NCBI RefSeq assembly: GCF_022836875.1 | Contig: NZ_CP090376.1 | Coordinates: 1,054,001-1,118,000 of the forward strand | Length of the DNA: 64,000 nt | Origin: Flavobacterium enshiense | GTDB lineage: Bacteria > Bacteroidota > Bacteroidia > Flavobacteriales > Flavobacteriaceae | Direction of reading: 5' to 3' | Shown: positions 26,901 through 38,709 of the stretch, one piece after another | Numbering within the stretch: position 1 is the stretch's first letter | Layout of the letters: each line of letters opens with the position of its first letter | Position numbers and translations under genes: made by a program | Notes under the pieces: generated by a model | Databases searched by the model: none | The model's input: only the letters and a program-made list of their open reading frames with translations | What the model was told of the DNA's origin: nothing

Positions 26901-28712
26901 ATGATGAGGTTATTTTTATTTTTTATGTTTTTTGTTTTTTCAAATACTCTTTTTTCGCAAGGGAAAGGTGTTTTGAATGATGAAAGGGCTTCGGTACTTG
27001 AAGAAAAAATAAAATCGTCTTTTAGTTCGAATATCGATAGTGCTTATGTTTATGCATCCCAACTTGAAAGTTCGGATGATCCTTCTCATAAAGCATTTTC
27101 TACTGCTTGTAAAGCTTATTTTTTTCAGTTAAAAAGCAGCCCTTTTGAAGCTGATAAATACTATCAAAAATCACTTATACATCTGGAGAAAGTTTCGGTT
27201 TCAGATAAAAAAACCAGTCTGAATGCTTTCATACTCAACATTGGCGGACTCATTGACTGGAGAAGGACTGATTATAATCAGGCTCTGGAGAAATATCAAA
27301 AGGGGAGAGATCTTTCGTTGAGCATTGATGACTATATGCAGGTTATTAAATTCGACAATAACATCGCGATGATTAATGCTGAAGTCGGTAATTATAAACA
27401 GGCGATTGCAGTTTCAAGAGAAGTAAACCGTACGACGGATAAGATAAAACACCAGTATACAGAAGAACAATTCATAAGGGATAAAGGAAATGTTTATATG
27501 AATCTGGCAAGTTTTTATGAACAGTATTATTTCAATATTGAAAAGAATTTGCGACTCACGGGTAAGAACGAGAAGGCAGACGTTAACTTTAAATTGTTGG
27601 ATTCTGCTGAATATTTCTATAAAAAAGTAGTAACCTTCTCAAGTAAATTCACAGACCGGAAAATAAGGGCGCAAATTAACCTGGCCAATATCTACAATAC
27701 GAAAAAAGACTTTGCAACAGCTGAAAAGGTGTATTATAACCTTATACTGCTTACTAAAAATAATAATTTTGAGGAAGAGTATTATAATACCAATTTTAAT
27801 CTGGGAAATTTATATTATACTACCAAAAGGTATGATAAAGCATTGACCTGTTTTCATAAAGTTGATTCGATTTACAATATAAAAAAGATGGGTAATTTGG
27901 AATTTATCATGTCCAATTATTATCAATCAAAGATTTACAGTGAGAAAAATGATGCTTTGAAAGCTTATAAACATTCCGAAATTTATTTGGATGCTTTTGA
28001 GAAAAATGAATCGAAAATTACAAAAGAAGTTTTGGAGGTCAATTATTCGATAGGATTATCCAACTTGAAAAAAGAAATGGATGATATGCAGGTAAAATAT
28101 AAGAACAAAGTACTTCTGAGAAATGGTTTGTACATTCTTATTTTTATATTATTTGTGGCTCTTTTGTTTGTTTTGTTGAGGAATGTGAATCAAAGAAAGG
28201 AGGTCGAGAAAAAAATCAGTTCGATGATTGCCGAGCATAAGGCCAATTTAGAAAAAAATAATGGCGAACATGAAATCACCTTGCTTGCAAAAGAGGAATA
28301 TTCAGATGACGAAGCTTCTAAAAACAAGCTGCCTTTATTAAGCATCGACGAAGAAAAAGAAAATGAAATTGTCAGAAAGTTGATAAATCTGGAAAAAAAG
28401 CAATATTATCTTAATCCCGATTTTACACAACAGGTAATTGCAAAAAAAATAAAAACAAATACCACTTATCTTTCTTACGTTGTTAACAAGCGTTTCGGAA
28501 AGACTTTCAGTGAATATGCCAACGAGCTAAAAATTAATTATGTCATTAATGAGATGATCACTAATTCGACCTATAGAAAATATTCTACTCAGGCCATGGC
28601 AGAAAGCGTTGGCTATAAGAATGCCGTTTCATTTACTAAAAGTTTTAGTAAGCGAACCGGCGTTACACCAGTCCGCTTTATAAAAAAGATAGAAGAAGAA
28701 GCGGTTAACTAG
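26901..28712 (+). CDS. Membrane-bound TPR / AraC-type HTH regulator
   Basis: A 603-residue protein with the Bacteroidetes architecture: signal sequence (1-20, FSNTLFSQ), a periplasmic array of TPR-like helices (about 40-390, for example YYNTNFNLGNLYYTTKRYDKALTCFHKV), one membrane helix (about 412-430, GLYILIFILFVALLFVLL), a coiled-coil-like linker, and a cytoplasmic AraC DNA-binding domain (about 495-600, TYLSYVVNKRFGKTFSEYANELKINY and SVGYKNAVSFTKSFSKRTGVTPVRF). It can carry a periplasmic signal to DNA in one polypeptide. It opens the peptide-maturation region and may control it; the Gly-Gly precursor gene lies convergently 18 bases beyond its stop. Confidence 0.88.
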   Translation: MMRLFLFFMFFVFSNTLFSQGKGVLNDERASVLEEKIKSSFSSNIDSAYVYASQLESSDDPSHKAFSTACKAYFFQLKSSPFEADKYYQKSLIHLEKVSVSDKKTSLNAFILNIGGLIDWRRTDYNQALEKYQKGRDLSLSIDDYMQVIKFDNNIAMINAEVGNYKQAIAVSREVNRTTDKIKHQYTEEQFIRDKGNVYMNLASFYEQYYFNIEKNLRLTGKNEKADVNFKLLDSAEYFYKKVVTFSSKFTDRKIRAQINLANIYNTKKDFATAEKVYYNLILLTKNNNFEEEYYNTNFNLGNLYYTTKRYDKALTCFHKVDSIYNIKKMGNLEFIMSNYYQSKIYSEKNDALKAYKHSEIYLDAFEKNESKITKEVLEVNYSIGLSNLKKEMDDMQVKYKNKVLLRNGLYILIFILFVALLFVLLRNVNQRKEVEKKISSMIAEHKANLEKNNGEHEITLLAKEEYSDDEASKNKLPLLSIDEEKENEIVRKLINLEKKQYYLNPDFTQQVIAKKIKTNTTYLSYVVNKRFGKTFSEYANELKINYVINEMITNSTYRKYSTQAMAESVGYKNAVSFTKSFSKRTGVTPVRFIKKIEEEAVN

Positions 28713-28730
28713 TTCTTTTGTTTGTCTTCT

Positions 28731-28931
28731 TTAAATTGAACCAACCCCTTTAATAGGGACAACCCCGCCTTCATCCTGTTTTTGAATCGTTTCTGTACTT
28801 CCTTTAGTTTGTGTTTTTACAGCATAATCATCTTGTTGTGTAGAATCTCCTCCTCCTCGTATAGATTTTTGTTCATTTTTACTCAGTTTGTTTTCTTCGA
28901 ATTTTTGAAAATTTAAGAATGATCGTTTCAT
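28731..28931 (-). CDS. RiPP precursor-like peptide with Gly-Gly leader (P1)
   Basis: A 66-residue peptide. Residues 1-28 form a Bacteroidetes-type leader (FEENKLSKNEQKSIRGGG) with the double-glycine end cut by C39 peptidases. The remaining ~38 residues are hydrophilic and rich in Thr, Ser, Gln, Asp and Glu with a Gly/Val-rich tail (GGVVPIKGVGSI) and no cysteine. Such Ser/Thr plus acidic content suits ATP-grasp ester or amide cross-linking. A -7 box (complement TAAATTTG, 28960-28967) precedes it. It is divergent from the rest of the peptide genes. Confidence 0.8.
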   Translation of the reverse strand: MKRSFLNFQKFEENKLSKNEQKSIRGGGDSTQQDDYAVKTQTKGSTETIQKQDEGGVVPIKGVGSI

Positions 28932-29075
28932 GAGAGTGTTGTTTTAATGGTTTGCTCAACAAATTTATCAAGAGCAGTGACTGAAATGTAGTTTTGACAT
29001 CCTTTTAAAGTTGAAAAATGTGTTTTTAGTTATAGCGTTCTGTTTTTCAGTGGGTTGTGTTTTTAAAGACCTGTG

Positions 29076-29113
29076 ATAATTTATAAATTATCTATTCATA
29101 ATTTACAAATTAT
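29076..29113. promoter_or_regulatory. Two 16-bp palindromes, 22 bp apart: candidate operator
   Basis: ATAATTTATAAATTAT (29076-29091) is a perfect palindrome and ATAATTTACAAATTAT (29098-29113) differs at one base. Their starts are 22 bases apart, two helical turns, placing both on one face of the DNA. They lie between the divergent P1 precursor and the VKOR-thioredoxin gene, where a shared regulator would bind. Confidence 0.5.
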
Positions 29114-29199
29114 GCCCCTTCACTCTTTTTTTTTAATCTGAAAAGGCTGAATTTCGTCATCAAATCACAATGATTTTGTAATTAAACAATTGATTTTTT

Positions 29200-30750
29200 A
29201 TGACCGATTTGATCGAAAAATATTTGACGATAAATCATTATTCAGAACAGAAAAAAGATTTTTTGGATCTGTATGCATCGCATCCTAATTACCCAAGTGT
29301 ATTTGCAATTACCGATACATTAGATTCATTATCGATTCCTAATGTAGCGATTAAAATTCCAAAAGAACAATTTATAGAATTACCAGATTCCTTTTTGACG
29401 ATTTTTAAGCAAAGTATGGTTTTGGTTCTGAAAAGTGACATTAGCGTGACGATTGAATTTGAAGACGGGAAAGGTAGAAATTTATCATTTAACGAATTCC
29501 TTACTGATTGGGGTCAGGTTGTTATAGCTATTGAGCCTAATGAAGTGATGAATGATGCAAGCAAAAGTTTAAATATAAAAAGACTTCGCTATGTTGCTCC
29601 GGTTATTGTTTTAGTTGCTTTTTCGCTTATTTATAATGAGTACAGTACCACTAGTCTGATTTTGTTATTAACTTCTCTTTTGGGATTGGGTACCGCCGTT
29701 TTAATTCTTCAGGAAAAGTTTGGATATGCAAACGGAATGGTATCGAAAATCTGTACCATTAATTCAAATACTTCCTGTAATTCCTTAATCCAATCGGATT
29801 CGGATAAAAAATGGATTCAATTTTCTGACCTTCCATTTTTATTTTTCGGAATTAGTGTCATGTCAATAATAATACAACCCCAAGACGCTGCTTTAATTGT
29901 CGGGATAATAAGCATATTGTCTCTTCCGGTTATTTTGTACTCCATTTGGCTGCAGAAAGTCCAATTAAGAAAATGGTGTGTCCTGTGTTTAATGGTGTCC
30001 TTTATAGTGATTACACAAAGTTTGTTTTTTGGAATAGGAACGCAAATGTCATTTTCCTTTTCTTCCATCCAACTTTTTGACTTTTTGTTCTCAGTTTTTT
30101 TTTTCGCCTCAATTTGGATGGTCGTGAAACCGATTTTTGAAGCAAAAATAGCTGCAGAGAAAGAAATTGTCCGGTTGATAAAATTCAAAAGGAATCATAA
30201 GTTGTTCATGCATCTGACAAAAGAGATTCCGAATTCTTTGGGGTTTGATCAACTAAAAGGATTGTCTTTCGGGAATAAACAAGCAGATATCCAATTGACG
30301 ATTATAATCAGTCCAAGTTGTGTTCACTGCCATAAAGTATTCGAGGACGCATATAAGTTAATGACAAAGTTTCCGGAGCGGGTATTTTTAAAAGTATTGT
30401 TTAATATCAACCCGGAAAACGATGAAAATCCATATAGGACTGTTGTGGAGAATCTGCTGGTTATAGGTAATTCTTTTCCGGAAAAAGCCCTTGCAGCCAT
30501 CACGGATTGGCATATTGAGAAAATGGAACTTGATGAGTGGAAAGCGAAATGGGCGGATAATGTCATCGGCATTAAGACAAGAGAGCAAATTCAGCAACAG
30601 TATAATTGGTGTCGCGAAAACGGATTCAATTATACGCCTGTTAAAGTCATAAACGATAAGTTGTTTCCTGATGGATATGAAATCGATGAGTTGAGATATT
30701 TTTTAAATGAATTTTCAGAAGAAAGTGTGTCTTTGGGAACGGCATTTTAA
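29200..30750 (+). CDS. VKOR-thioredoxin disulfide oxidoreductase with C39-like N-domain
   Basis: A 516-residue inner-membrane protein. N-terminal ~115 residues resemble a C39-like domain (ASHPNYPSVFAITDTLDSL) but carry no catalytic Cys. A VKOR domain follows (about 125-310, several membrane helices) with the loop pair Cys185/Cys193 and the quinone-side Cys260-x-x-Cys263 (WCVLC). A periplasmic thioredoxin-like domain follows with Cys374-x-x-Cys377 (SPSCVHCHK). This is a full relay for making disulfides and passing electrons to quinone. It sits directly before two Cys-rich peptide genes, probable substrates. Confidence 0.88.
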   Translation: MTDLIEKYLTINHYSEQKKDFLDLYASHPNYPSVFAITDTLDSLSIPNVAIKIPKEQFIELPDSFLTIFKQSMVLVLKSDISVTIEFEDGKGRNLSFNEFLTDWGQVVIAIEPNEVMNDASKSLNIKRLRYVAPVIVLVAFSLIYNEYSTTSLILLLTSLLGLGTAVLILQEKFGYANGMVSKICTINSNTSCNSLIQSDSDKKWIQFSDLPFLFFGISVMSIIIQPQDAALIVGIISILSLPVILYSIWLQKVQLRKWCVLCLMVSFIVITQSLFFGIGTQMSFSFSSIQLFDFLFSVFFFASIWMVVKPIFEAKIAAEKEIVRLIKFKRNHKLFMHLTKEIPNSLGFDQLKGLSFGNKQADIQLTIIISPSCVHCHKVFEDAYKLMTKFPERVFLKVLFNINPENDENPYRTVVENLLVIGNSFPEKALAAITDWHIEKMELDEWKAKWADNVIGIKTREQIQQQYNWCRENGFNYTPVKVINDKLFPDGYEIDELRYFLNEFSEESVSLGTAF

Positions 30751-30848
30751 TCAGATTTATAAAATTATAAAACCATACATAAAAGTGGACAGAAGTCTCA
30801 AATGTCTTAAAATGATTGAGATAATATTCAGTTATAAAAACTTTAATT

Positions 30849-31028
30849 ATGTTATTAAAAGACATCTTAAGTATCGACGGGGTTGAAAAAATATCCCAAA
30901 AGCTGCAAAAAAGTATTAGAAACGAAAAGGTTATTTGCAAAGAAAACAATATGTGTGCACAGTATGGAAAGCATTGTGATGAACTTGCTTGTAAAGAGAT
31001 TCCTCATTTTGAGATAAACTTTATTTAA
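30849..31028 (+). CDS. Small Cys-rich peptide, precursor-like (P2)
   Basis: A 59-residue frame read directly from the sequence, too short for the usual ORF cut-off. The N-terminal half (MLLKDILSIDGVEKISQKLQKSIRN) resembles flavobacterial bacteriocin-type leaders but lacks a Gly-Gly end; the C-terminal half has four cysteines (30, 36, 43, 48) in CKENNMCAQYGKHCDELACK. It is 98 bases after the VKOR gene and paralogous in its leader to P3. Two disulfides, formed by the upstream oxidoreductase, are plausible. Function (bacteriocin, signal or other) unknown. Confidence 0.7.
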   Translation: MLLKDILSIDGVEKISQKLQKSIRNEKVICKENNMCAQYGKHCDELACKEIPHFEINFI

Positions 31029-31089
31029 ATCGTCTTAATATATTTCCCCGAATTAGTCGTAGTAGCATTTCCCCGAAAAGACTGATCCT

Positions 31090-31129
31090 TATATGACTGA
31101 ATCAGAAGATTTTTTGTTTCAGTCATATA
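31090..31129 (+). terminator. Hairpin after P2
   Basis: Perfect 12-bp inverted repeat TATATGACTGAA/TTCAGTCATATA with a 16-base loop, 61 bases after the P2 stop. No good T-run follows, so it may instead stabilise or attenuate the transcript. Confidence 0.5.
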
Positions 31130-31151
31130 AAATGAAAAATCTCAGGCCAAA

Positions 31152-31174
31152 AGAGACACAGCCCAAGTGTCTCT
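31152..31174 (+). other. Second hairpin upstream of P3
   Basis: AGAGACAC/GTGTCTCT, 8-bp perfect stem with a seven-base loop, 38 bases before the P3 start. Probably in the P3 leader RNA. Confidence 0.5.
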
Positions 31175-31212
31175 AACGGCAGAGTATTATGTCAAATTTT
31201 AAATTATTGATT

Positions 31213-31350
31213 ATGTTAAAGAACATTTTAAAATTAAAAGGCGTAGAAGAAATTACGAAAATCGAGCAAAAAAGAATCAACAGAGGAAATGTTGCTTGTA
31301 AACCAGACCCTTGTCCGGAAGGATACTGCTGCAGTAGTACTTTGTCGTGA
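31213..31350 (+). CDS. Small Cys-rich peptide, precursor-like (P3)
   Basis: A 45-residue frame read directly from the sequence. Leader-like part MLKNILKLKGVEEITKIEQKR, then INRGNVACKPDPCPEGYCCSSTLS with four cysteines including a CC pair, and Pro-rich spacing. The stop is TGA. The leader aligns with P2 and, more loosely, with the Gly-Gly precursors P1 and P4. A strong terminator follows at 31458, so P3 ends a short transcription unit. Likely exported and oxidised; target unknown. Confidence 0.72.
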   Translation: MLKNILKLKGVEEITKIEQKRINRGNVACKPDPCPEGYCCSSTLS

Positions 31351-31683
31351 TATTGGGATTTTTATACAGAGTCATTATTTTTTTTTAAATATTTTGTTTT
31401 TAACTAGAATCATCTTAGGATGATGCCCCAAATCTCTACTGAAGAGTTGTAGTTAAGCTGCCTGGAAATTACTTTCAGGCAGTTTTTTTTTTTGTTATCT
31501 ATGATTTCATAAACTTTATTTGTAAGAATTTATTGTAAATTTAACAGGTATGATTTGGTTGTTTGAAAAATGTAAAGTATAATTGCAAAGAAATTCCTAC
31601 TTATTTAACCAAAGCAAGCGCGCAGTGAGTAGCGAGATGAAGTTGGATTTCAAGAGAAATAATTTATTAATTATCTAAAAAAA
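31351..31683. other. 333-base spacer between P3 and P4
   Basis: Contains a strong terminator (31458-31493) and, near its end, ATAATTTATTAATTAT (31659-31674), one base off the palindrome seen at 29076, directly upstream of the P4 start. No open frame was found. A short hairpin ATCATC-TTAG-GATGAT lies just after P3. Confidence 0.6.
31458..31493 (+). terminator. Rho-independent terminator of the P2/P3 unit
   Basis: CTGCCTG/CAGGCAG 7-bp stem, 11-base loop, then eleven T. It separates the Cys-rich peptides from the maturase operon. Confidence 0.9.
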
Positions 31684-31914
31684 ATGATTAAGATGAAAAA
31701 AATGAATTCAAAATTGTTTGATAGTTTAAAACTGTCTGAAAATGAAGCTAAAAATGTTGTAGGAGGATTAGCATATACCTCGAAAAATTCTGATACTGCT
31801 GCAAGTACAACTTCTTATGATGTCGTATTTTGGACTACAGATATCAATGGAAACAATGGGCATTTTGATTCTGAGAATACTGGAGGGGGTGAAAAGGATC
31901 AGCCTCAAAATTAA
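31684..31914 (+). CDS. RiPP precursor with Gly-Gly leader (P4), likely substrate of the maturases
   Basis: A 76-residue peptide with leader MNSKLFDSLKLSENEAK then NVVGG, cut after Gly-Gly, leaving a ~47-residue core. The core is rich in Ser/Thr in its first half (TSKNSDTAASTTSYD), has an aromatic centre (VVFWTTD) and then Asn, Asp, Glu and Gly (DSENTGGGEKD). It contains no Cys. The mix of Ser/Thr hydroxyls and Asp/Glu carboxyls is what graspetide-type ATP-grasp enzymes join. It lies immediately upstream of the operon with ATP-grasp and SPASM proteins, making it the best cognate substrate. Alternative in-frame starts: 31693 and 31702. Confidence 0.85.
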   Translation: MIKMKKMNSKLFDSLKLSENEAKNVVGGLAYTSKNSDTAASTTSYDVVFWTTDINGNNGHFDSENTGGGEKDQPQN

Positions 31915-31932
31915 GTTGTAATCCATTACAGC

Positions 31933-31964
31933 AGCATAGTCTACTCAAAAAAGTAGACTATGCT
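31933..31964 (+). terminator. Strong hairpin between P4 and the maturase operon
   Basis: A 13-bp perfect stem (AGCATAGTCTACT/AGTAGACTATGCT) with loop CAAAAA starts 19 bases after the P4 stop and is followed only by TTTATAATT. A leaky terminator or RNA-stabilising hairpin that would keep precursor mRNA above maturase mRNA. Confidence 0.7.
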
Positions 31965-32089
31965 TTATAATTCCGATTTTTTTCGGTTTGATATAGATGA
32001 TTTCAGTTGGATGAAAGGTTGTTTAATGGATTTGATGAAGCTGATTAACTACGGATTAAAATAAAAATCAAAAGAATGCGTACAAAAAA

Positions 32090-33061
32090 ATGAAAATATT
32101 ATTGCTCTTTTCGACGTTCGTTTTGAGTTGTATCTCATATTCTCAAAGTAATTATAAAGAATATCATTCTTTAAGCATCAAGTCACAAAAAACAACAAAA
32201 GATTCTGCCATTTTTTATTTAGAAAAAGCAGTTAAAATAGCCATTCCGTTTCCGGATGAATTGAGAAATTTAAGTTATTATTATTTCCAATCTGGAAATG
32301 ACGTAAAAGCAAAAGAGGCATTTTTTAAATCTATAAGATTTGGATATCAATTTGAATCGGATAATAACAAGCAACAAAGATTTGCAGTTGAATATGATTT
32401 GGGTTATATGAGTTTAGAAAATAAAAGCAATTATGGTGTGTTTCTTAATGGGCTTTACAAAAAAAAGCTAAATAAAATGAGAAGATTGAGGCAAAGATAT
32501 TTAAAAGAGTTAGATAAAAATGACAATGTTTTATTTGAAAATATACTACATAATGAAAAATATTTTCAAGAATTGCGGTTTCTTTTTTTTGACAATAAAG
32601 TTAAAGATTCTTTGGCTTTTAATTATATTGGGAAATACGGGTCAACGCCTAATAGTTATTATATGTTGGAGCTTTTAAAGAAAGGTGTTTTTCCCAAGCG
32701 GAGAAAATGCAGAAGATTTAACGGTCAGACAATAACAATATTGTTGAATCATGCCATTGCTGGATTTTTAAAAAAGGAAGACGCTTTGCAGTTTGTTCAG
32801 ATGCTTTGGCCTCTTGTTGAAATTGGTGAACTGACGCCTGACGAATATGCATCTGCATATGATCATTATGTACAGTATTTTATAGACGCAAATAAAAGTT
32901 TGTTCGGTACAAAAATGTACACTGATATTGATGGGAAATTAACGTTAATGGAGTTAATTAATCCAAATGATGTGAATCAGATCAGAAAAGAATATTGGAT
33001 TGTTGATATTGAACTGTTTTGTAAAAATTTCAACATTAAATTACCAAAAAATTATGAATGA
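32090..33061 (+). CDS. Secreted TPR-like protein of unknown function in the peptide operon
   Basis: A 323-residue protein with a signal peptide (1-19, SCISYSQ) and N-terminal TPR-like helices (SAIFYLEKAVKIAIPFPDELRNLSYYYFQSGNDVKAKEAFFKSI), followed by a helical part with WIVDIELF near the end. No catalytic motif recognised. Its last eight bases overlap the ATP-grasp start, so it is translationally coupled to the maturation genes, yet it is exported. It may receive, shield or sense the exported peptide, or be an immunity factor; this is inference from position. Confidence 0.65.
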   Translation: MKILLLFSTFVLSCISYSQSNYKEYHSLSIKSQKTTKDSAIFYLEKAVKIAIPFPDELRNLSYYYFQSGNDVKAKEAFFKSIRFGYQFESDNNKQQRFAVEYDLGYMSLENKSNYGVFLNGLYKKKLNKMRRLRQRYLKELDKNDNVLFENILHNEKYFQELRFLFFDNKVKDSLAFNYIGKYGSTPNSYYMLELLKKGVFPKRRKCRRFNGQTITILLNHAIAGFLKKEDALQFVQMLWPLVEIGELTPDEYASAYDHYVQYFIDANKSLFGTKMYTDIDGKLTLMELINPNDVNQIRKEYWIVDIELFCKNFNIKLPKNYE

Positions 33062-34010
33062 TAAATTAATATTGATATGCTCAGATGTTTCTGAGCCAAG
33101 CACCGATATAGTCTGTTCGTGGTTAAATTATTACGATAAAAAGTTTGTTCGGGTCTCAGCGGAGAATATTATTGATATAAAAAGTATTGTAATAAAAGAT
33201 AATTACATAGACATAAATTTTAATATTGATAATGAAGGATATAAATTGTCTGATTTTAAATCATATTGGTATAGAAGGTCAAGATTAAAGTTCGCAATAT
33301 TTTCGGAAGTAAAATTCCTTTACAATGGTAAAGATATAAGTTCAAAAATGAATGTTTTTTTGGAAAAGGAATACAATAAGGTAGTAGAGTTTTTTGAGAT
33401 GAAATTAAATCAGTTGGCAATCTTAAACAAATTTAAAGACAATAATATAAACAAACTACAAGTTTTATCACTAGCTAATGACTTAGGGATAAAAGTTCCG
33501 GAAACTTATGTGCTTAATGATTTTAGTATGCTTGATTTTAGCAATGAGGGTTATATAACAAAAGCTATTTCAGATCTTGCGATAATTGATAATGATACGA
33601 CTTTTTATTCTATGACTCAGAGGGTAAATTATGACGATGGGAAAAACATCTGGTATTCATTAATTCAAAAAGAAGTTCAGAAAAAATTTGAAATTCGGAG
33701 CTTCTATTTTAATAATAGGTTTTTTAGCTCCGCAATTTTTTCGCAAGAAAACGATAAAACAAAATTAGATTTTAGAAATTACGATTTTGAAAATCCGAAT
33801 AGAGTTGTCCCCTTTAAGTTTCCTATTAGTTTAGAAGAAAAAATAAGTAAATTATGTAATAAGCTTGATTTGAAATCAGGGAGCTTTGACTTTGCCTACA
33901 CAAATGAAGGGGAATATGTGCTTTTTGAAGTTAATCCTGTAGGTCAGTTTGAGCAGGTGTCTGCCCCTTGTAATTACAACATACATAAAGAAATTGCAGT
34001 TAGTTTATGA
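33054..34010 (+). CDS. ATP-grasp peptide maturase (grasp-with-spasm type)
   Basis: A 318-residue ATP-grasp ligase like those paired with SPASM proteins in Bacteroidetes and distantly like the microviridin ligases. An N-terminal pre-ATP-grasp/leader-binding region (DYWYRRSR-like YWYRRSRLKF about 70), a lysine in GYITKAIS, the strand LIQKEVQKKFEIRSFYF, and the metal-binding end DFAY...FEVNPVGQF with Asp279, Glu292 and Asn294. It should activate side-chain carboxylates as acyl phosphates and join them to Ser, Thr or Lys in the precursor. Start at 33054 (MNDKLILIC) chosen over a longer frame from 33000, which lacks support. Stop overlaps the next small gene (ATGA). Confidence 0.85.
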   Translation: MNDKLILICSDVSEPSTDIVCSWLNYYDKKFVRVSAENIIDIKSIVIKDNYIDINFNIDNEGYKLSDFKSYWYRRSRLKFAIFSEVKFLYNGKDISSKMNVFLEKEYNKVVEFFEMKLNQLAILNKFKDNNINKLQVLSLANDLGIKVPETYVLNDFSMLDFSNEGYITKAISDLAIIDNDTTFYSMTQRVNYDDGKNIWYSLIQKEVQKKFEIRSFYFNNRFFSSAIFSQENDKTKLDFRNYDFENPNRVVPFKFPISLEEKISKLCNKLDLKSGSFDFAYTNEGEYVLFEVNPVGQFEQVSAPCNYNIHKEIAVSL

Positions 34011-34165
34011 GAGAAAATAATAAGTTGCCAGTTGTAGTGCAAAAAATGCAATCTGCTGAGGTTGTTGAATTAATTTTTCACACTGTAGAAAGTGCAAAGC
34101 TCCAAACAGCAAAGCATGTAATAAGAGAAATATATTTAAGAACCTCTTTCTTTCCCAGAAAATAA
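34007..34165 (+). CDS. Unannotated 52-residue protein between ATP-grasp and SPASM genes
   Basis: Read directly from the sequence: ATG overlaps the ATP-grasp stop (ATGA) and the stop lies one base before the SPASM start, so the spacing is that of a real, translationally coupled gene. The product is basic and probably helical (VVVQKMQSAEVVELIFHTVES, then AKHVIREIYLRTSFFPRK). No family recognised. Without it there would be a 156-base gap in an otherwise seamless operon. It may be an adaptor for the maturases or a leader-binding subunit; that is speculation. Confidence 0.7.
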   Translation: MRENNKLPVVVQKMQSAEVVELIFHTVESAKLQTAKHVIREIYLRTSFFPRK

Positions 34166-34166
34166 A

Positions 34167-35219
34167 ATGTATCAGATTTATAATAACATCCTTTTTTGTA
34201 AAGGGTATAACAGGACTTTGATTTACGATTCGTTGAAATCACAGATTCATTTTATTCCAAATCATTGTTTTGAACAATTAAATTCGACAGATTTCTTTTT
34301 TAAAGGAAATGATGTGGATGAAGATTTGCTTTGTTTTCTAAAGGAAAAGAATTTAGTCTTTGATTCAAATGAAGATATTAGAAACTGTTTTCCTCAGTTT
34401 AATGATGACTTTGAAATACCATATGATATAATAACGGCGGTTGTTGAACTGTCTGAAATAAATGCACTCAATTTATATAAATTTAATGAAAATGGAGTCA
34501 ATGGGCAAATACCACAATTTAATTTTATATTTTCAGAATATACTACTGTTAGGGCTTTAGAATTGTTTAGTGATTTTGTTAATGAAAATGAAGCGGATAC
34601 TTTTGAAGTGACTTTAGTTAACGGGTTTGAACTTACAGAAATGCTTTTCAAATTGCTTGAGCCTTCTAATAAAATCATTTCTATCAACAATTTTTCAGGG
34701 GTAAAAATTATCGATGGATCGAATAAGAAAAATAGATTTTACAATGATATTGATGAAATAAGTTTAAAGATATCTCCTAATTTGTTAACTTATTTTGAAT
34801 CGGCAAAATGCCATGTTTATTTTAATAGAAAATTATTTATTGGAAAAGACTCTGAAATTAAAAATGTCTTTGAAACGGTAAATGTATTTGGATACTTAAA
34901 GGATTTGTCAAACATAAATATAAAAAATTTAATATCACTAAAAGGACTCAATGAATTTTGGGAAGTAAAAAAAGATGATACATTTGTGTGCTCGGATTGC
35001 GAGTTCAGAAGATTGTGTGTCGATAATCGTGTTCCTATTAGGGGAGAAGGTAAGTGGAAGTATAATACGGAATGTAATTATAATCCATACATAAGTAAAT
35101 GGCAGCATGAGGAGGGTTATGCATCATTGTCTGAGTGCGGAGTAAGAAGTGACTTAAATGAATTTTATGTTGACAGTGAAAAAATTAATCGAATTAATTC
35201 CCAACTTTGGGATGAGTAG
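34167..35219 (+). CDS. SPASM-domain peptide maturase lacking the radical-SAM motif
   Basis: A 350-residue protein of the type paired with ATP-grasp enzymes. The C-terminal part has an SPASM-like cysteine set: Cys275-x2-Cys278-x5-Cys284 (CSDCEFRRLC), then Cys303 and Cys324, with an earlier AKCHVYFNRK and Gly about residue 225. The N-terminal part has no Cys-x3-Cys-x2-Cys motif, so the radical-SAM [4Fe-4S] cluster cannot be bound in the usual way. It may instead bind one or two auxiliary clusters and act as a binding or electron protein with the ATP-grasp enzyme. Two bases before the transporter gene. Confidence 0.82.
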   Translation: MYQIYNNILFCKGYNRTLIYDSLKSQIHFIPNHCFEQLNSTDFFFKGNDVDEDLLCFLKEKNLVFDSNEDIRNCFPQFNDDFEIPYDIITAVVELSEINALNLYKFNENGVNGQIPQFNFIFSEYTTVRALELFSDFVNENEADTFEVTLVNGFELTEMLFKLLEPSNKIISINNFSGVKIIDGSNKKNRFYNDIDEISLKISPNLLTYFESAKCHVYFNRKLFIGKDSEIKNVFETVNVFGYLKDLSNINIKNLISLKGLNEFWEVKKDDTFVCSDCEFRRLCVDNRVPIRGEGKWKYNTECNYNPYISKWQHEEGYASLSECGVRSDLNEFYVDSEKINRINSQLWDE

Positions 35220-35221
35220 TA

Positions 35222-37417
35222 ATGCTTAAAAGTTTCCCTTTTTACAAACAAGCCGATGCAAAAGACTGTGGTCCGACCTGTTTAAAAATAATTGCCAAGT
35301 ATTATGGCAAAACCATTAATATTCAGGAATTACGCAGCTTAAGCGAAACCACCCGTGAGGGAAGTAATCTACTTTTTCTTAGCGATGCTGCTGAGAAAAT
35401 TGGGTTTCGGACCCTTGGTGTAAAGCTTAGTCTGGAGCGATTGGAGGAAGCTCCATTGCCGTGTGTTTTGCATTGGAATAACAATCATTATGTCATTTTA
35501 TACAAAATAAAAAGGGACACTTTTTATATTTCCGATCCTGCTCAAGGGTTACTCGAGTATTCAAAAGAAGAATTCATCAAATTCTGGATAGGAAACAATG
35601 CCGATGAAGCCACCCAGGAAGGCATCGCCTTATTATTGGAACCTACTCCTAAATTCCACCAGTCGGATTTTGATAAAGAAGAAAAAAAAGGCTTGGGTTT
35701 CGGGATGTTGTATCAATATCTTTGGCGTTATCAATCCTTTTTGATTCAGTTAAGCATCGGTTTGTCAGCGAGCAGTTTGCTGCAATTGATCTTTCCGTTC
35801 CTTACCCAAAGCATCGTCGATGTAGGCATACAGAACCAGAATATTCATTTCGTCTACATGATTTTGTTCGCACAGCTGTTCTTGTTTGCCGGAAGAACAG
35901 GTTTGGAACTCATACGAAGTTGGATTTTGCTGCATCTTTCCACACGAATCAACATTTCGCTGATTTCCGATTTCTTCATCAAACTGATGAATCTCCCGAT
36001 TTCCTTTTTCGATGTAAGAATGACCGGTGACATCATGCAGCGGATTAACGATCATCGACGTATCGAACGAATCCTTACCACATCGTCGTTAAACGTATTG
36101 TTTTCCCTGATTAATATGATAATTATGGGAGGTGTATTGGCGTATTATAACCTGCAGATTTTTTTCGTGTTTTTTGCCGGAAGCATCTTATATTTCGGTT
36201 GGATAACCCTGTTCTTGAAACGAAGGGAAGCTTTGGATTACAAACGTTTTTCCGAAGTGAGTCAGGAACAAAGCAAAGTAATGGAACTTATCAACGGGAT
36301 GCAGGAAATCAAACTCCACAACGCCGAAAAACAAAAACGTTGGGGTTGGGAATATGTTCAGGCGCGATTGTTCCGGGTTTCCATAAAAGGGCTGGTTTTA
36401 GAACAGACACAAACCATCGGTTCTTCTGTAATCAACGAATTAAAGAATATTTTCATCATTTTTTTATCGGCGAAATTGGTAATCGACGGTGAAATCACAC
36501 TCGGGATGATGATGGCAATAAGTTCCATAGTGGGAAGTTTAAACGGACCCATTACGCAACTCATCGGCTTTGTCAGAGAAATGCAGGATGCCAAAATTTC
36601 CTTGGCCCGCTTGTCTGAAATTCATGAAAAGGAAGATGAAGTTCAACAGGAAGAACATCAGATACATGATGTGCCTCAAAATGAAGATATTCATATAAAA
36701 GAGCTGTCGTACCGTTATCTGGGATCAGATATTCCGGTTCTGGAGAATCTGAATCTGACAATACCGGCAAAAAAAGTAACGGCTATTGTGGGTGTCAGCG
36801 GAAGCGGAAAGACAACTTTAATGAAATTGTTGCTCAAGTTTTATGAGCCTAATTCCGGCGAAATCAATCTCGGAAACACGCAGTTAAAAAATATTTCCCA
36901 AAAAGCTTGGCGTAATAACATAGGGGCGGTAATGCAGGAAGGTTTTATTTTTAATGATACGATTGCCAATAATATAGCGGTAGGCGTAGATATTGTAGAT
37001 AAAAAACGATTGGTTTATGCTGCGGATGTGGCCAATATTAAAGAATATATTTCAGGATTGCCCTTGGGCTATAATACCAAAATTGGCTCGGAAGGACTCG
37101 GAATGAGTACTGGTCAAAAACAGCGTCTGTTAATTGCACGCGCCGTTTATAAAAATCCGGAAATGTTGTTTTTTGATGAAGCGACATCTGCATTGGACGC
37201 CAACAACGAAAAGAAAATCATGGAGCAGCTGGATTTGTTTTTCAAAAATAAAACGGTTGTAGTTATCGCACATCGTTTGAGTACCGTGATGAATGCCGAT
37301 CAGATTGTTGTGTTAGATAAGGGCAGGATTATTGAAATGGGTAACCACTCGGCCTTAGTGGAACAGAAAGGGAATTATTTCGAGTTGGTTAGAAATCAGT
37401 TGCAGTTAGGAAATTAA
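35222..37417 (+). CDS. C39 peptidase-containing ABC transporter (PCAT)
   Basis: A 731-residue exporter that cuts the leader after Gly-Gly and pumps the core out. N-terminal C39 protease with Cys16 (DCGPTC), His89 (HWNNNHYVI) and Asp105 (ISDPAQG); six-helix membrane domain (about 165-450); ATPase domain with Walker A GVSGSGKTT (about 524), signature MSTGQKQR, Walker B MLFFDEATSALDA and VIAHRLST. All catalytic residues are present. It ends two bases before the HlyD gene; together they should form a peptide export channel with an outer-membrane protein encoded elsewhere. Confidence 0.95.
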   Translation: MLKSFPFYKQADAKDCGPTCLKIIAKYYGKTINIQELRSLSETTREGSNLLFLSDAAEKIGFRTLGVKLSLERLEEAPLPCVLHWNNNHYVILYKIKRDTFYISDPAQGLLEYSKEEFIKFWIGNNADEATQEGIALLLEPTPKFHQSDFDKEEKKGLGFGMLYQYLWRYQSFLIQLSIGLSASSLLQLIFPFLTQSIVDVGIQNQNIHFVYMILFAQLFLFAGRTGLELIRSWILLHLSTRINISLISDFFIKLMNLPISFFDVRMTGDIMQRINDHRRIERILTTSSLNVLFSLINMIIMGGVLAYYNLQIFFVFFAGSILYFGWITLFLKRREALDYKRFSEVSQEQSKVMELINGMQEIKLHNAEKQKRWGWEYVQARLFRVSIKGLVLEQTQTIGSSVINELKNIFIIFLSAKLVIDGEITLGMMMAISSIVGSLNGPITQLIGFVREMQDAKISLARLSEIHEKEDEVQQEEHQIHDVPQNEDIHIKELSYRYLGSDIPVLENLNLTIPAKKVTAIVGVSGSGKTTLMKLLLKFYEPNSGEINLGNTQLKNISQKAWRNNIGAVMQEGFIFNDTIANNIAVGVDIVDKKRLVYAADVANIKEYISGLPLGYNTKIGSEGLGMSTGQKQRLLIARAVYKNPEMLFFDEATSALDANNEKKIMEQLDLFFKNKTVVVIAHRLSTVMNADQIVVLDKGRIIEMGNHSALVEQKGNYFELVRNQLQLGN

Positions 37418-37419
37418 TC

Positions 37420-38709
37420 ATGGAAGAGAAGAATAAAGACACATTTGAATTGCGAAGTGAAGAAGTTCAAGATATACTCACGCGAGTACCTCACTGGATG
37501 ATCCGCTGGGGAACGGTTTTGATTTTCGGAATCGTCTTCATGTTGTTTTCTATATCCTGGTTTTTGAGATATCCGGACGTGGTGGCTTCCGAGATTGTGA
37601 TTACCACCAATATTCCGCCTGAAAAATTGGTGGCAAGGGTTTCCGGACGAATTGAAGCCATTCTGGTGAAAGATAAAATGACGATAAAGGAGAATACATC
37701 ATTGGCTGTAATTGAAAATTCGGCAAATTATAAAGATGTTTTTCTGCTCAGTAAATTAATCAATGATTCAGAACAAGGGGCGAAATTTCCGTTTGAAAAA
37801 TTGAATAATGCACAATTAGGCGATATAGAAAGTGCGTTTGCGGTTTTTCAGAAAGATTATATCGCAGAAGGTTTAAATGCCGATTTACAGCCGTTTCAGG
37901 TTGAAGGCAATGCTAAGAAATCAGAGACCGTACAAATTCAGCAGCGATTAAATTTATTGTTGCAGCAGAAAAGTATTAATGAACAAGAGTTGAAACTTCA
38001 GAAGAATGAAATCAGCCGCTACACCGTATTACACGGAAAAGGGGTGATATCCGATCAGGAATTTGAAACCAAAAAACTGAATTACCTCCAATCGGAAAAA
38101 AATTATAAGAACCTGCTGACATCCATTTCGCAATTGCAATCCTCTTTAATTGAAAACAAAAGGGCGGTTAAGGGAACGGAAATTGGCGGAACCAAAGAAG
38201 GGGTAACGTTGAGCCGGAATGTTGCACAGTCGTATTTCCAGCTGAAGAAAGCCATCAAAGACTGGGAGCTTAATTACGTTTTGAAATCATCTATTGAAGG
38301 TGAAGTGGCATTTGCACAGATTTGGGTGGAGAATCAAACAATAACGGCGGGAGATAACGTTTTTTCAATTGTTCCGAAAACCGAAAGGGGTTATATTGGT
38401 AAAGTAAAAGCGCCGGCGCACAATTCAGGAAAAATCAAAGTCGGACAGCAGGTGAATATCCGTTTGGCTAATTTTCCTGATCGCGAATTCGGAATTCTGA
38501 AAGGCGAAGTGAAAAACATTTCTTTAGTTCCGGATAAAGATGGAAATATCATGATGGATGTTATCTTGCCTCAAAACCTGAAAACGACTTATAAGAAAGA
38601 AATCCCATTTCAGCAGGAAATGAAAGGATCAGCCGAAATCATCACGGAAGATTTACGTTTGCTGGAACGAATCCTGTATCAGTTCCGGGACGTTTTTAAA
38701 CCGAATTAA
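37420..38709 (+). CDS. HlyD-family membrane fusion protein
   Basis: A 429-residue adaptor: one membrane helix (about 29-48, IRWGTVLIFGIVFMLFSISW), a lipoyl-like half (VSGRIEAILVKDKMTIKENTSLAVIE), a coiled-coil hairpin (about 165-250) and the second lipoyl/beta-barrel half (IEGEVAFAQIWVENQTITAGDNVFSIV). It should join the inner-membrane exporter to a TolC-like protein. Last gene of the peptide operon; its end overlaps the convergent methyltransferase gene by four bases. Confidence 0.92.
   Translation: MEEKNKDTFELRSEEVQDILTRVPHWMIRWGTVLIFGIVFMLFSISWFLRYPDVVASEIVITTNIPPEKLVARVSGRIEAILVKDKMTIKENTSLAVIENSANYKDVFLLSKLINDSEQGAKFPFEKLNNAQLGDIESAFAVFQKDYIAEGLNADLQPFQVEGNAKKSETVQIQQRLNLLLQQKSINEQELKLQKNEISRYTVLHGKGVISDQEFETKKLNYLQSEKNYKNLLTSISQLQSSLIENKRAVKGTEIGGTKEGVTLSRNVAQSYFQLKKAIKDWELNYVLKSSIEGEVAFAQIWVENQTITAGDNVFSIVPKTERGYIGKVKAPAHNSGKIKVGQQVNIRLANFPDREFGILKGEVKNISLVPDKDGNIMMDVILPQNLKTTYKKEIPFQQEMKGSAEIITEDLRLLERILYQFRDVFKPN

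Follow-up and report, generated by a model that had tools for sequence, protein, structure and literature searches.

Grasp-with-spasm loci (TIGR04192/TIGR04193; branch 5 in PMC8939145 and group 14 in PMC13097080) encode an ATP-grasp graspetide synthetase, here called GwsG, next to a SPASM-type protein, GwsS, and, in the portions of PMC8939145 considered here, constitute the largest of the poorly characterised ATP-grasp groups, with 190 loci. No product of such a locus was found described in the open-licence literature. Two further systems are close. In the bacteroidetocins (class IIf), as presented in the sections of PMC6671954 consulted, small four-Cys leader peptides, a thiol oxidoreductase and a C39 ABC exporter are encoded in one locus, and deletion of the thiol oxidoreductase attenuates a bacteroidetocin, a four-Cys Gly-Gly (GG) peptide with a C39 exporter. 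The rosaritide synthetase MirB needs, and copurifies with, MirC, a neighbour whose N-domain weakly resembles an RRE (PMC13097080, in the part used). Here we analyse a locus at 26.9-38.7 kb of a 64,000-nucleotide stretch of Flavobacterium enshiense (NZ_CP090376.1, positions 1,054,001 to 1,118,000 of the forward strand; hereafter the window), whose genome is a single contig of 3.25 Mb with completeness 100. The system is a divergent member of the known graspetide kind inside a modular locus. On balance, we favour a reading in which the locus is a regulated peptide-export chassis, built around a VKOR gene, that carries a plug-in graspetide cassette.

An earlier note on this stretch had listed ATP-grasp and SPASM-type proteins, a C39 exporter, HlyD, a VKOR-thioredoxin protein and four small peptides, two with Gly-Gly leaders and two Cys-rich, and all of these were found. 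P1 and P4 carry GG leaders in sequence, and P2 and P3 have a related leader without GG and four Cys each. Four parts lie beyond that list: the TPR-AraC gene and the operator given just below, and the secreted TPR-like protein and 52-aa open reading frame (ORF) given with the cassette. The chassis comprises the following features.

26901-28712, plus strand: TPR-AraC regulator with a signal-peptide-like N-terminus, TPR repeats, one transmembrane helix (408-426, from hydropathy) and an AraC-type HTH (Pfam TPR_12 and HTH_18 over cut-off).
28731-28931, minus strand: P1, a Cys-free GG-leader peptide and candidate autoinducer (TIGR04149-like leader, 24.3 bits, cut-off 25).
29076-29113, no strand assigned: direct-repeat operator candidate (period 22 bp) in the promoter region between the divergent P1 and VKOR genes.
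29200-30750, plus strand: fusion of C39-like (non-catalytic), VKOR and DsbA-like domains (VKOR over the Pfam cut-off).
30849-31028, plus strand: P2, a Cys-rich leader peptide with four Cys, a conserved core and no GG; similar peptides in loci L145, L146, L162 and L164.
31213-31350, plus strand: P3, a Cys-rich leader peptide with four Cys and no GG, shorter than its L145 homologue (six Cys).
31455-31485, plus strand: terminator-like hairpin after P3, with 13 pairs and a T run (terminator scan; similar sequence after the L145 P3, by eye).
35222-37417, plus strand: C39 peptidase-ABC exporter (Pfam over cut-off).
37420-38709, plus strand: HlyD-type adaptor (TIGR01843, 60.1 bits, below the cut-off of 208.65).

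At E 1e-10 or better, the VKOR protein has matches in 92 of 299 Flavobacterium genomes. Most of the 63 VKOR stretches compared share one gene order: a flanking gene that we take to be acyl-CoA dehydrogenase-like, the TPR-AraC gene, GG peptides on the opposite strand (one to five, with few exceptions Cys-free), the VKOR gene, Cys-rich peptides (up to 19, in L150, and none in a few stretches), the C39 exporter and HlyD. These stretches are mostly best-scoring matches, with five chosen for gws genes (the window, L102, L110, L159 and L164) and some of lower score added to widen the range, and frequencies among them are not estimates from a random sample. Judged by sequence comparison, the chassis (regulator, P1, VKOR fusion, Cys-rich peptides, C39 exporter and HlyD) is conserved at one chromosomal site in many Flavobacterium. 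Other genomes have relatives of the VKOR protein and of the P1-, P2/P3- and P4-type peptides arranged in a similar manner, and the locus is therefore not a chance assembly.

In Gly-Gly pheromone circuits such as ComC/ComA, a GG peptide is cut by a C39 exporter and induces its own regulon. Those circuits employ a two-component system, whereas here the predicted receptor is a single TPR-TM-AraC protein. A transmembrane helix lies at 300-480, between TPR and HTH, in all 57 long regulator homologues by hydropathy. When a gene is called regulator-plus if a TPR-AraC ORF ends within 2.5 kb upstream of VKOR, P1-type peptides accompany 51 of 52 regulator-plus genes and none of the 17 regulator-minus ones (Fisher 3e-15; this value, like the binomial and Poisson values of the analysis, overstates certainty because related loci are not independent). 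At the single departure, L155, a related peptide is present but lacks GG. Five regulator-minus genes (L110, L164, L188, L200 and L201) have a regulator at another place in their stretch, four of these beside another VKOR copy, and two more (L205 and L206) lie near a contig end. In L110, a gws insert separates regulator and VKOR, and neither P1 nor the operator was seen there. A P1 pattern without a length limit had returned six false matches at regulator-minus genes, each of them within the acyl-CoA dehydrogenase-like ORF, and was discarded for one limited to 110 aa.

The operator candidate, two 17-mers with a 22-23-bp period upstream of VKOR, follows nearly the same division. Its score is at least 27 of 34 in 48 of the 52 regulator-plus genes and 23-26 in the remaining four, and it is at most 24 in the regulator-minus genes (n=16, one gene less than 700 bases from a contig end being left out), where shuffled sequences reach 22-25. 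The consensus was derived from the plus loci, so the contrast between the two groups weighs more than the height of the scores; the window's own repeat scores 29 and its best shuffle 28. Strong repeats on the VKOR strand, counted on one strand of the other loci, lie upstream of VKOR in 45 of 46 cases, the other one preceding a truncated VKOR copy in L102, and the stricter pattern matches the host genome once, at the operator candidate. One imperfect half-site was seen upstream of P4. Since P1 and the repeat both track the presence of the regulator, their co-occurrence suggests that P1 acts as an autoinducer.

A different role for P1, as a third secreted effector (a small bacteriocin or an ordinary RiPP substrate, that is, of a ribosomally synthesized and post-translationally modified peptide pathway), with the TPR-AraC protein sensing something else, appears to us rather unlikely, yet several points speak for it. 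The P1 leader resembles TIGR04149 targets, falling just short of the cut-off; regulator, P1 and operator may be linked just as parts of one old unit; and the coevolution signal lacks specificity, the partial correlation of P1 core and TPR over 49 loci (r 0.29, permutation p 0.001) being matched by 0.28 for P1 core and VKOR. Conversely, an effector does not readily account for the absence of P1-type peptides at all 17 regulator-minus genes, and of the operator at the 16 scanned, when most of these keep Cys peptides and the exporter. It also fits poorly with the P1 copies of one locus, which have like cores (mean similarity 0.51 within a locus, 84 pairs, versus 0.056 between loci), whereas the cores of Cys peptides do not (0.003 within and -0.002 between loci). 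This is what a set of one signal plus diversified effectors would give, and we retain the autoinducer as the preferred role of P1. The earlier note had P1 as a precursor for the ATP-grasp enzyme; P1-type peptides follow the TPR-AraC regulator, mostly at loci without gws genes, and P1 is probably no graspetide precursor.

The chassis also includes the Cys-rich peptides. VKOR and DsbA cysteines are invariant, and even numbers of Cys are found in 94 of 98 core types of VKOR-linked Cys peptides (peptides below 38 or above 90 aa after trimming excluded). A C39-like fold was found for the N-domain of the VKOR protein; its hhalign comparison to the C39 domain of the exporter is weak (probability 28%), and a precomputed C39 domain is present in 5 of the 120 VKOR homologues listed. 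In a rescan of four homologues, three of those five were over the C39 cut-off and P0042, 83% identical to the window protein, gave no match. By its gene content the disulfide part would work like the bacteroidetocin loci, to which it is likened by content and not by sequence kinship. It differs from them, as far as the consulted sections of PMC6671954 go, in having up to 19 unlike peptides in relatives, the C39-like-VKOR-DsbA fusion, and its own regulator and P1; moreover, bacteroidetocins have a GG cleavage site that is lacking in P2 and P3, although GG is present in many of their relatives. A five-transmembrane protein of bacteroidetocin type, as given in those sections, was not identified among the ORFs of at least 150 aa in 26901-38709, every one of which is assigned otherwise. 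The P2 core (four Cys, an MCAQYG-like centre and an acidic hydrophobic tail) is kept across species in the window, L145:9128-9304, L146, L162 and L164, which is not so for most other Cys cores. At L150:9148-13613, 19 Cys-rich leader peptides, most of them differing in their cores, stand in an array before one exporter.

Between P3 and the exporter, the chassis is interrupted by the five-gene gws cassette, with these features.

31495-35226, plus strand: payload slot, holding the gws cassette in the window and other genes in G620/L145 (borders from blastn).
31575-31633, plus strand: element upstream of the slot precursor, common to two other loci with other payloads, with one match in the host genome.
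31693-31914 (in-frame ATG also at 31684), plus strand: P4, a candidate graspetide-type precursor with a GG leader; its core lacks Cys and is rich in Ser/Thr/Asp/Glu, and L031 and L032 have orthologues.
31933-31964, plus strand: hairpin after P4, a possible attenuator (terminator scan).
32090-33061, plus strand: secreted TPR-like protein, likened by position to Makarova cluster 23 (14 of 56 stretches, counting the window, have homologues).
33054-34010, plus strand: GwsG, ATP-grasp graspetide synthetase (TIGR04192, 257.8 bits, cut-off 230; only match in the host genome).
34007-34165, plus strand: putative LPL-type 52-aa protein between GwsG and GwsS (the ORF holds LPV).
34167-35219, plus strand: GwsS, with a putative RRE-like domain, a radical-SAM-like barrel without the SAM-cluster motif and one SPASM-type Cys set.

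The borders of the cassette are sharp in sequence comparison. The 33 genomes in which GwsG has a match do not include G620 (L145), which has the same chromosomal site and a VKOR protein 81% identical; the blastn alignment to G620 (84% identity) stops at 31494 and restarts at 35227 (82%). Inside the slot G620 matches the window over 33 bp alone (31575-31607), placed in both genomes about 110-118 bp before the first gene of the slot, and this match is part of a longer element that also lies upstream of the slot peptide in G567. Other payloads occupy the slot elsewhere: LanB and LanC genes fill it in G589, and a split LanB is found in the G626 locus. With F. profundi (L031), the match is confined to the cassette (pieces within 31693-35102). 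The payload of L145 (10688-13736) consists of a GG peptide, a 402-aa protein without a Pfam or NCBIfam match, for which an HExxH-like reading is tentative, and a 506-aa protein whose metallo-beta-lactamase matches are weak and fall far short of the cut-off. By eye, what seems to be another, degenerate slot element lies near L145:10070. At L102:7406-8854, a partial second copy of the chassis start (regulator fragments, a P1-type peptide, a strong direct repeat and a truncated VKOR) lies beside a gws insert, which suggests duplication during insertion.

GwsG exceeds the cut-off in 14 of 299 Flavobacterium genomes. Within 10 kb of a VKOR gene lie 5 of the 20 strong Flavobacterium gws loci (>200 bits; 15 genomes), against 0.12 expected by our own estimate (Poisson 1.9e-7). 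On the GwsG tree, proximity to VKOR needs five changes, at least four of them forced by starred branches; the label is not clustered, because shuffled labels average 4.8 changes. This speaks for repeated association of gws genes with the chassis, through changes that may be gains or losses. Genomes G626 and G630 each carry three strong gws loci.

The cassette could have merely landed in the chassis as an integration hot spot, using another export route and making peptides functionally unrelated to P2 and P3. The sharp borders with the terminator-like hairpin in between would fit such a landing, as would the presence of the same cassette in F. profundi and F. sp. 9AF, where the chassis is absent from the stretch examined, and the occurrence of lanthipeptide genes in such loci. 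We nevertheless regard it as unlikely, given that P4 has a GG leader, that the five associations occur at different chassis positions and that PF03412 has one match in the genome, the exporter of the window. With a single C39 peptidase match in the whole genome, the exporter is probably shared by the peptides of the locus. The same result supports the central proposal of the earlier note, two chemically different peptide types on one exporter, which is also backed by the even Cys counts and the recurrent proximity of gws and VKOR genes. That note had named GwsG/GwsS pairs consistently free of precursors or an exporter as a reason to abandon it, and this is not the case: 23 of 40 stretches (GwsG >300 and GwsS >200 bits, some stopping at contig ends) hold a C39 exporter and 17 hold none.

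By sequence, GwsG is a graspetide synthetase related to the described branch, with AMdnB and CdnC as relatives in the PDB and 65% identity to the proteins of F. profundi and F. sp. 9AF. The cassette has in common with grasp-with-spasm graspetides, as described in the portions of PMC8939145 and PMC13097080 considered, a GwsG over cut-off, an adjacent GwsS with a small ORF in between, an upstream GG precursor, a secreted partner, a C39 exporter and HlyD. It is unlike them in that the P4 core is Cys-free, the cassette sits inside a separate VKOR chassis, and GwsS, at 88.3 bits (E 6.5e-25), stays below the TIGR04193 cut-off of 175, which is why we call the system a divergent relative and not a clean member. 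P4 matches TIGR04194 weakly (14.8 bits, cut-off 33). An ORF of at least 35 aa lies between GwsG and GwsS in 43 of 47 pairs, with LP[LIVMF] in 24 of the 47, and a profile from the 52-aa ORF of the window reaches just L031/L112 (one locus) and L032. DUF6624 (PF20329) was considered for the 32090-33061 protein and rejected, the search of the host genome having given two weak matches elsewhere and none there.

GwsS is the part of the earlier interpretation that needs revision. A cross-linking role had been proposed for it, and the parts of PMC8939145 consulted treat the SPASM protein as a radical SAM enzyme, whereas we read it as a non-catalytic partner. The CxxxCxxC motif is absent from all 39 database rows (among them the protein of the window) and all 47 locus rows (window included, one 46-aa fragment dropped, L031 and L112 being one locus), and the loop region 88-110 has no conserved Cys. 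All 47 locus rows have CxxCx5C followed by a further Cys; no Pfam SPASM match was obtained. SuiB was the one Foldseek match with E 0.001 or better, and its TM-scores were below 0.3. With its putative RRE-like domain, its radical-SAM-like barrel and the missing motif, GwsS looks like a leader-binding partner and not a radical SAM enzyme. The four Cys (C275, C278, C284 and C303) are invariant in 29 rows, so a cluster seems under selection, and GwsS might instead be an active enzyme performing Fe-S redox chemistry on P4 without SAM. We consider this quite improbable in view of the missing motif and loop Cys and of the P4 core, whose lack of Cys excludes a thioether role on P4. A leader-binding GwsS has a counterpart in MirC, also a strictly co-occurring neighbour of a graspetide synthetase with an RRE-like N-domain, although MirC, in the part of PMC13097080 considered, is PpiC/chaperone-like (TIGR04500) and GwsS is radical-SAM-like.

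Under the favoured reading of chassis plus cassette, the C39 exporter would cleave and export P1. The TPR-AraC protein would sense the peptide through its periplasmic TPR domain, bind the direct repeat with its HTH and thereby switch on P1 and VKOR-P2-P3. The C39-like domain of the VKOR protein would dock leader peptides at the membrane, and VKOR and the DsbA-like domain would form the disulfides of P2 and P3 during or after export. In the cytoplasm, GwsG would make Ser/Thr-to-Asp/Glu ester (or Lys amide) rings in P4, with GwsS as leader-binding partner through its RRE-like domain and the LPL protein as a small activator in trans; modified P4 would leave by the same exporter after a cut at GG. 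Competing bacteria are the most likely targets of the peptides. In the open-licence literature, we found no description of the VKOR/TPR-AraC chassis, nor of the proposed slot organisation, the P1-regulator-operator link, the C39-like-VKOR-DsbA fusion as a putative leader-docking oxidase or GwsS as a putative pseudo-radical-SAM partner.

More tentatively, and with less than even confidence, we extend this to a widespread one-component peptide quorum sensing in Flavobacterium (GG peptide, C39 export, TPR-TM-AraC sensor and 22-23-bp direct repeat), in which the same exporter ships disulfide peptides and interchangeable slot RiPP payloads (graspetide, lanthipeptide and others), the graspetide type with a pseudo-radical-SAM leader-binding partner. 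If true, it would provide an induction signal, an operator and an exporter for the silent peptide loci of a large environmental genus, whose products could then be elicited with a short synthetic peptide. It would further account for the role of the SPASM partner in the largest poorly characterised ATP-grasp group of PMC8939145 and would mean that unrelated RiPP chemistries can use one export chassis through cassette exchange.

A promoter scan was uninformative (54 found versus 49.6 in shuffles), and the terminator scan showed no excess (7 in total versus 7.3 in shuffles). Two hairpin-like inverted repeats are visible by eye between P2 and P3, at 31080-31180 of the window. Downstream of HlyD, most of the 63 VKOR stretches continue with genes of the other strand, in the window a TrmN-like gene and, presumably, rimM and rpsP.

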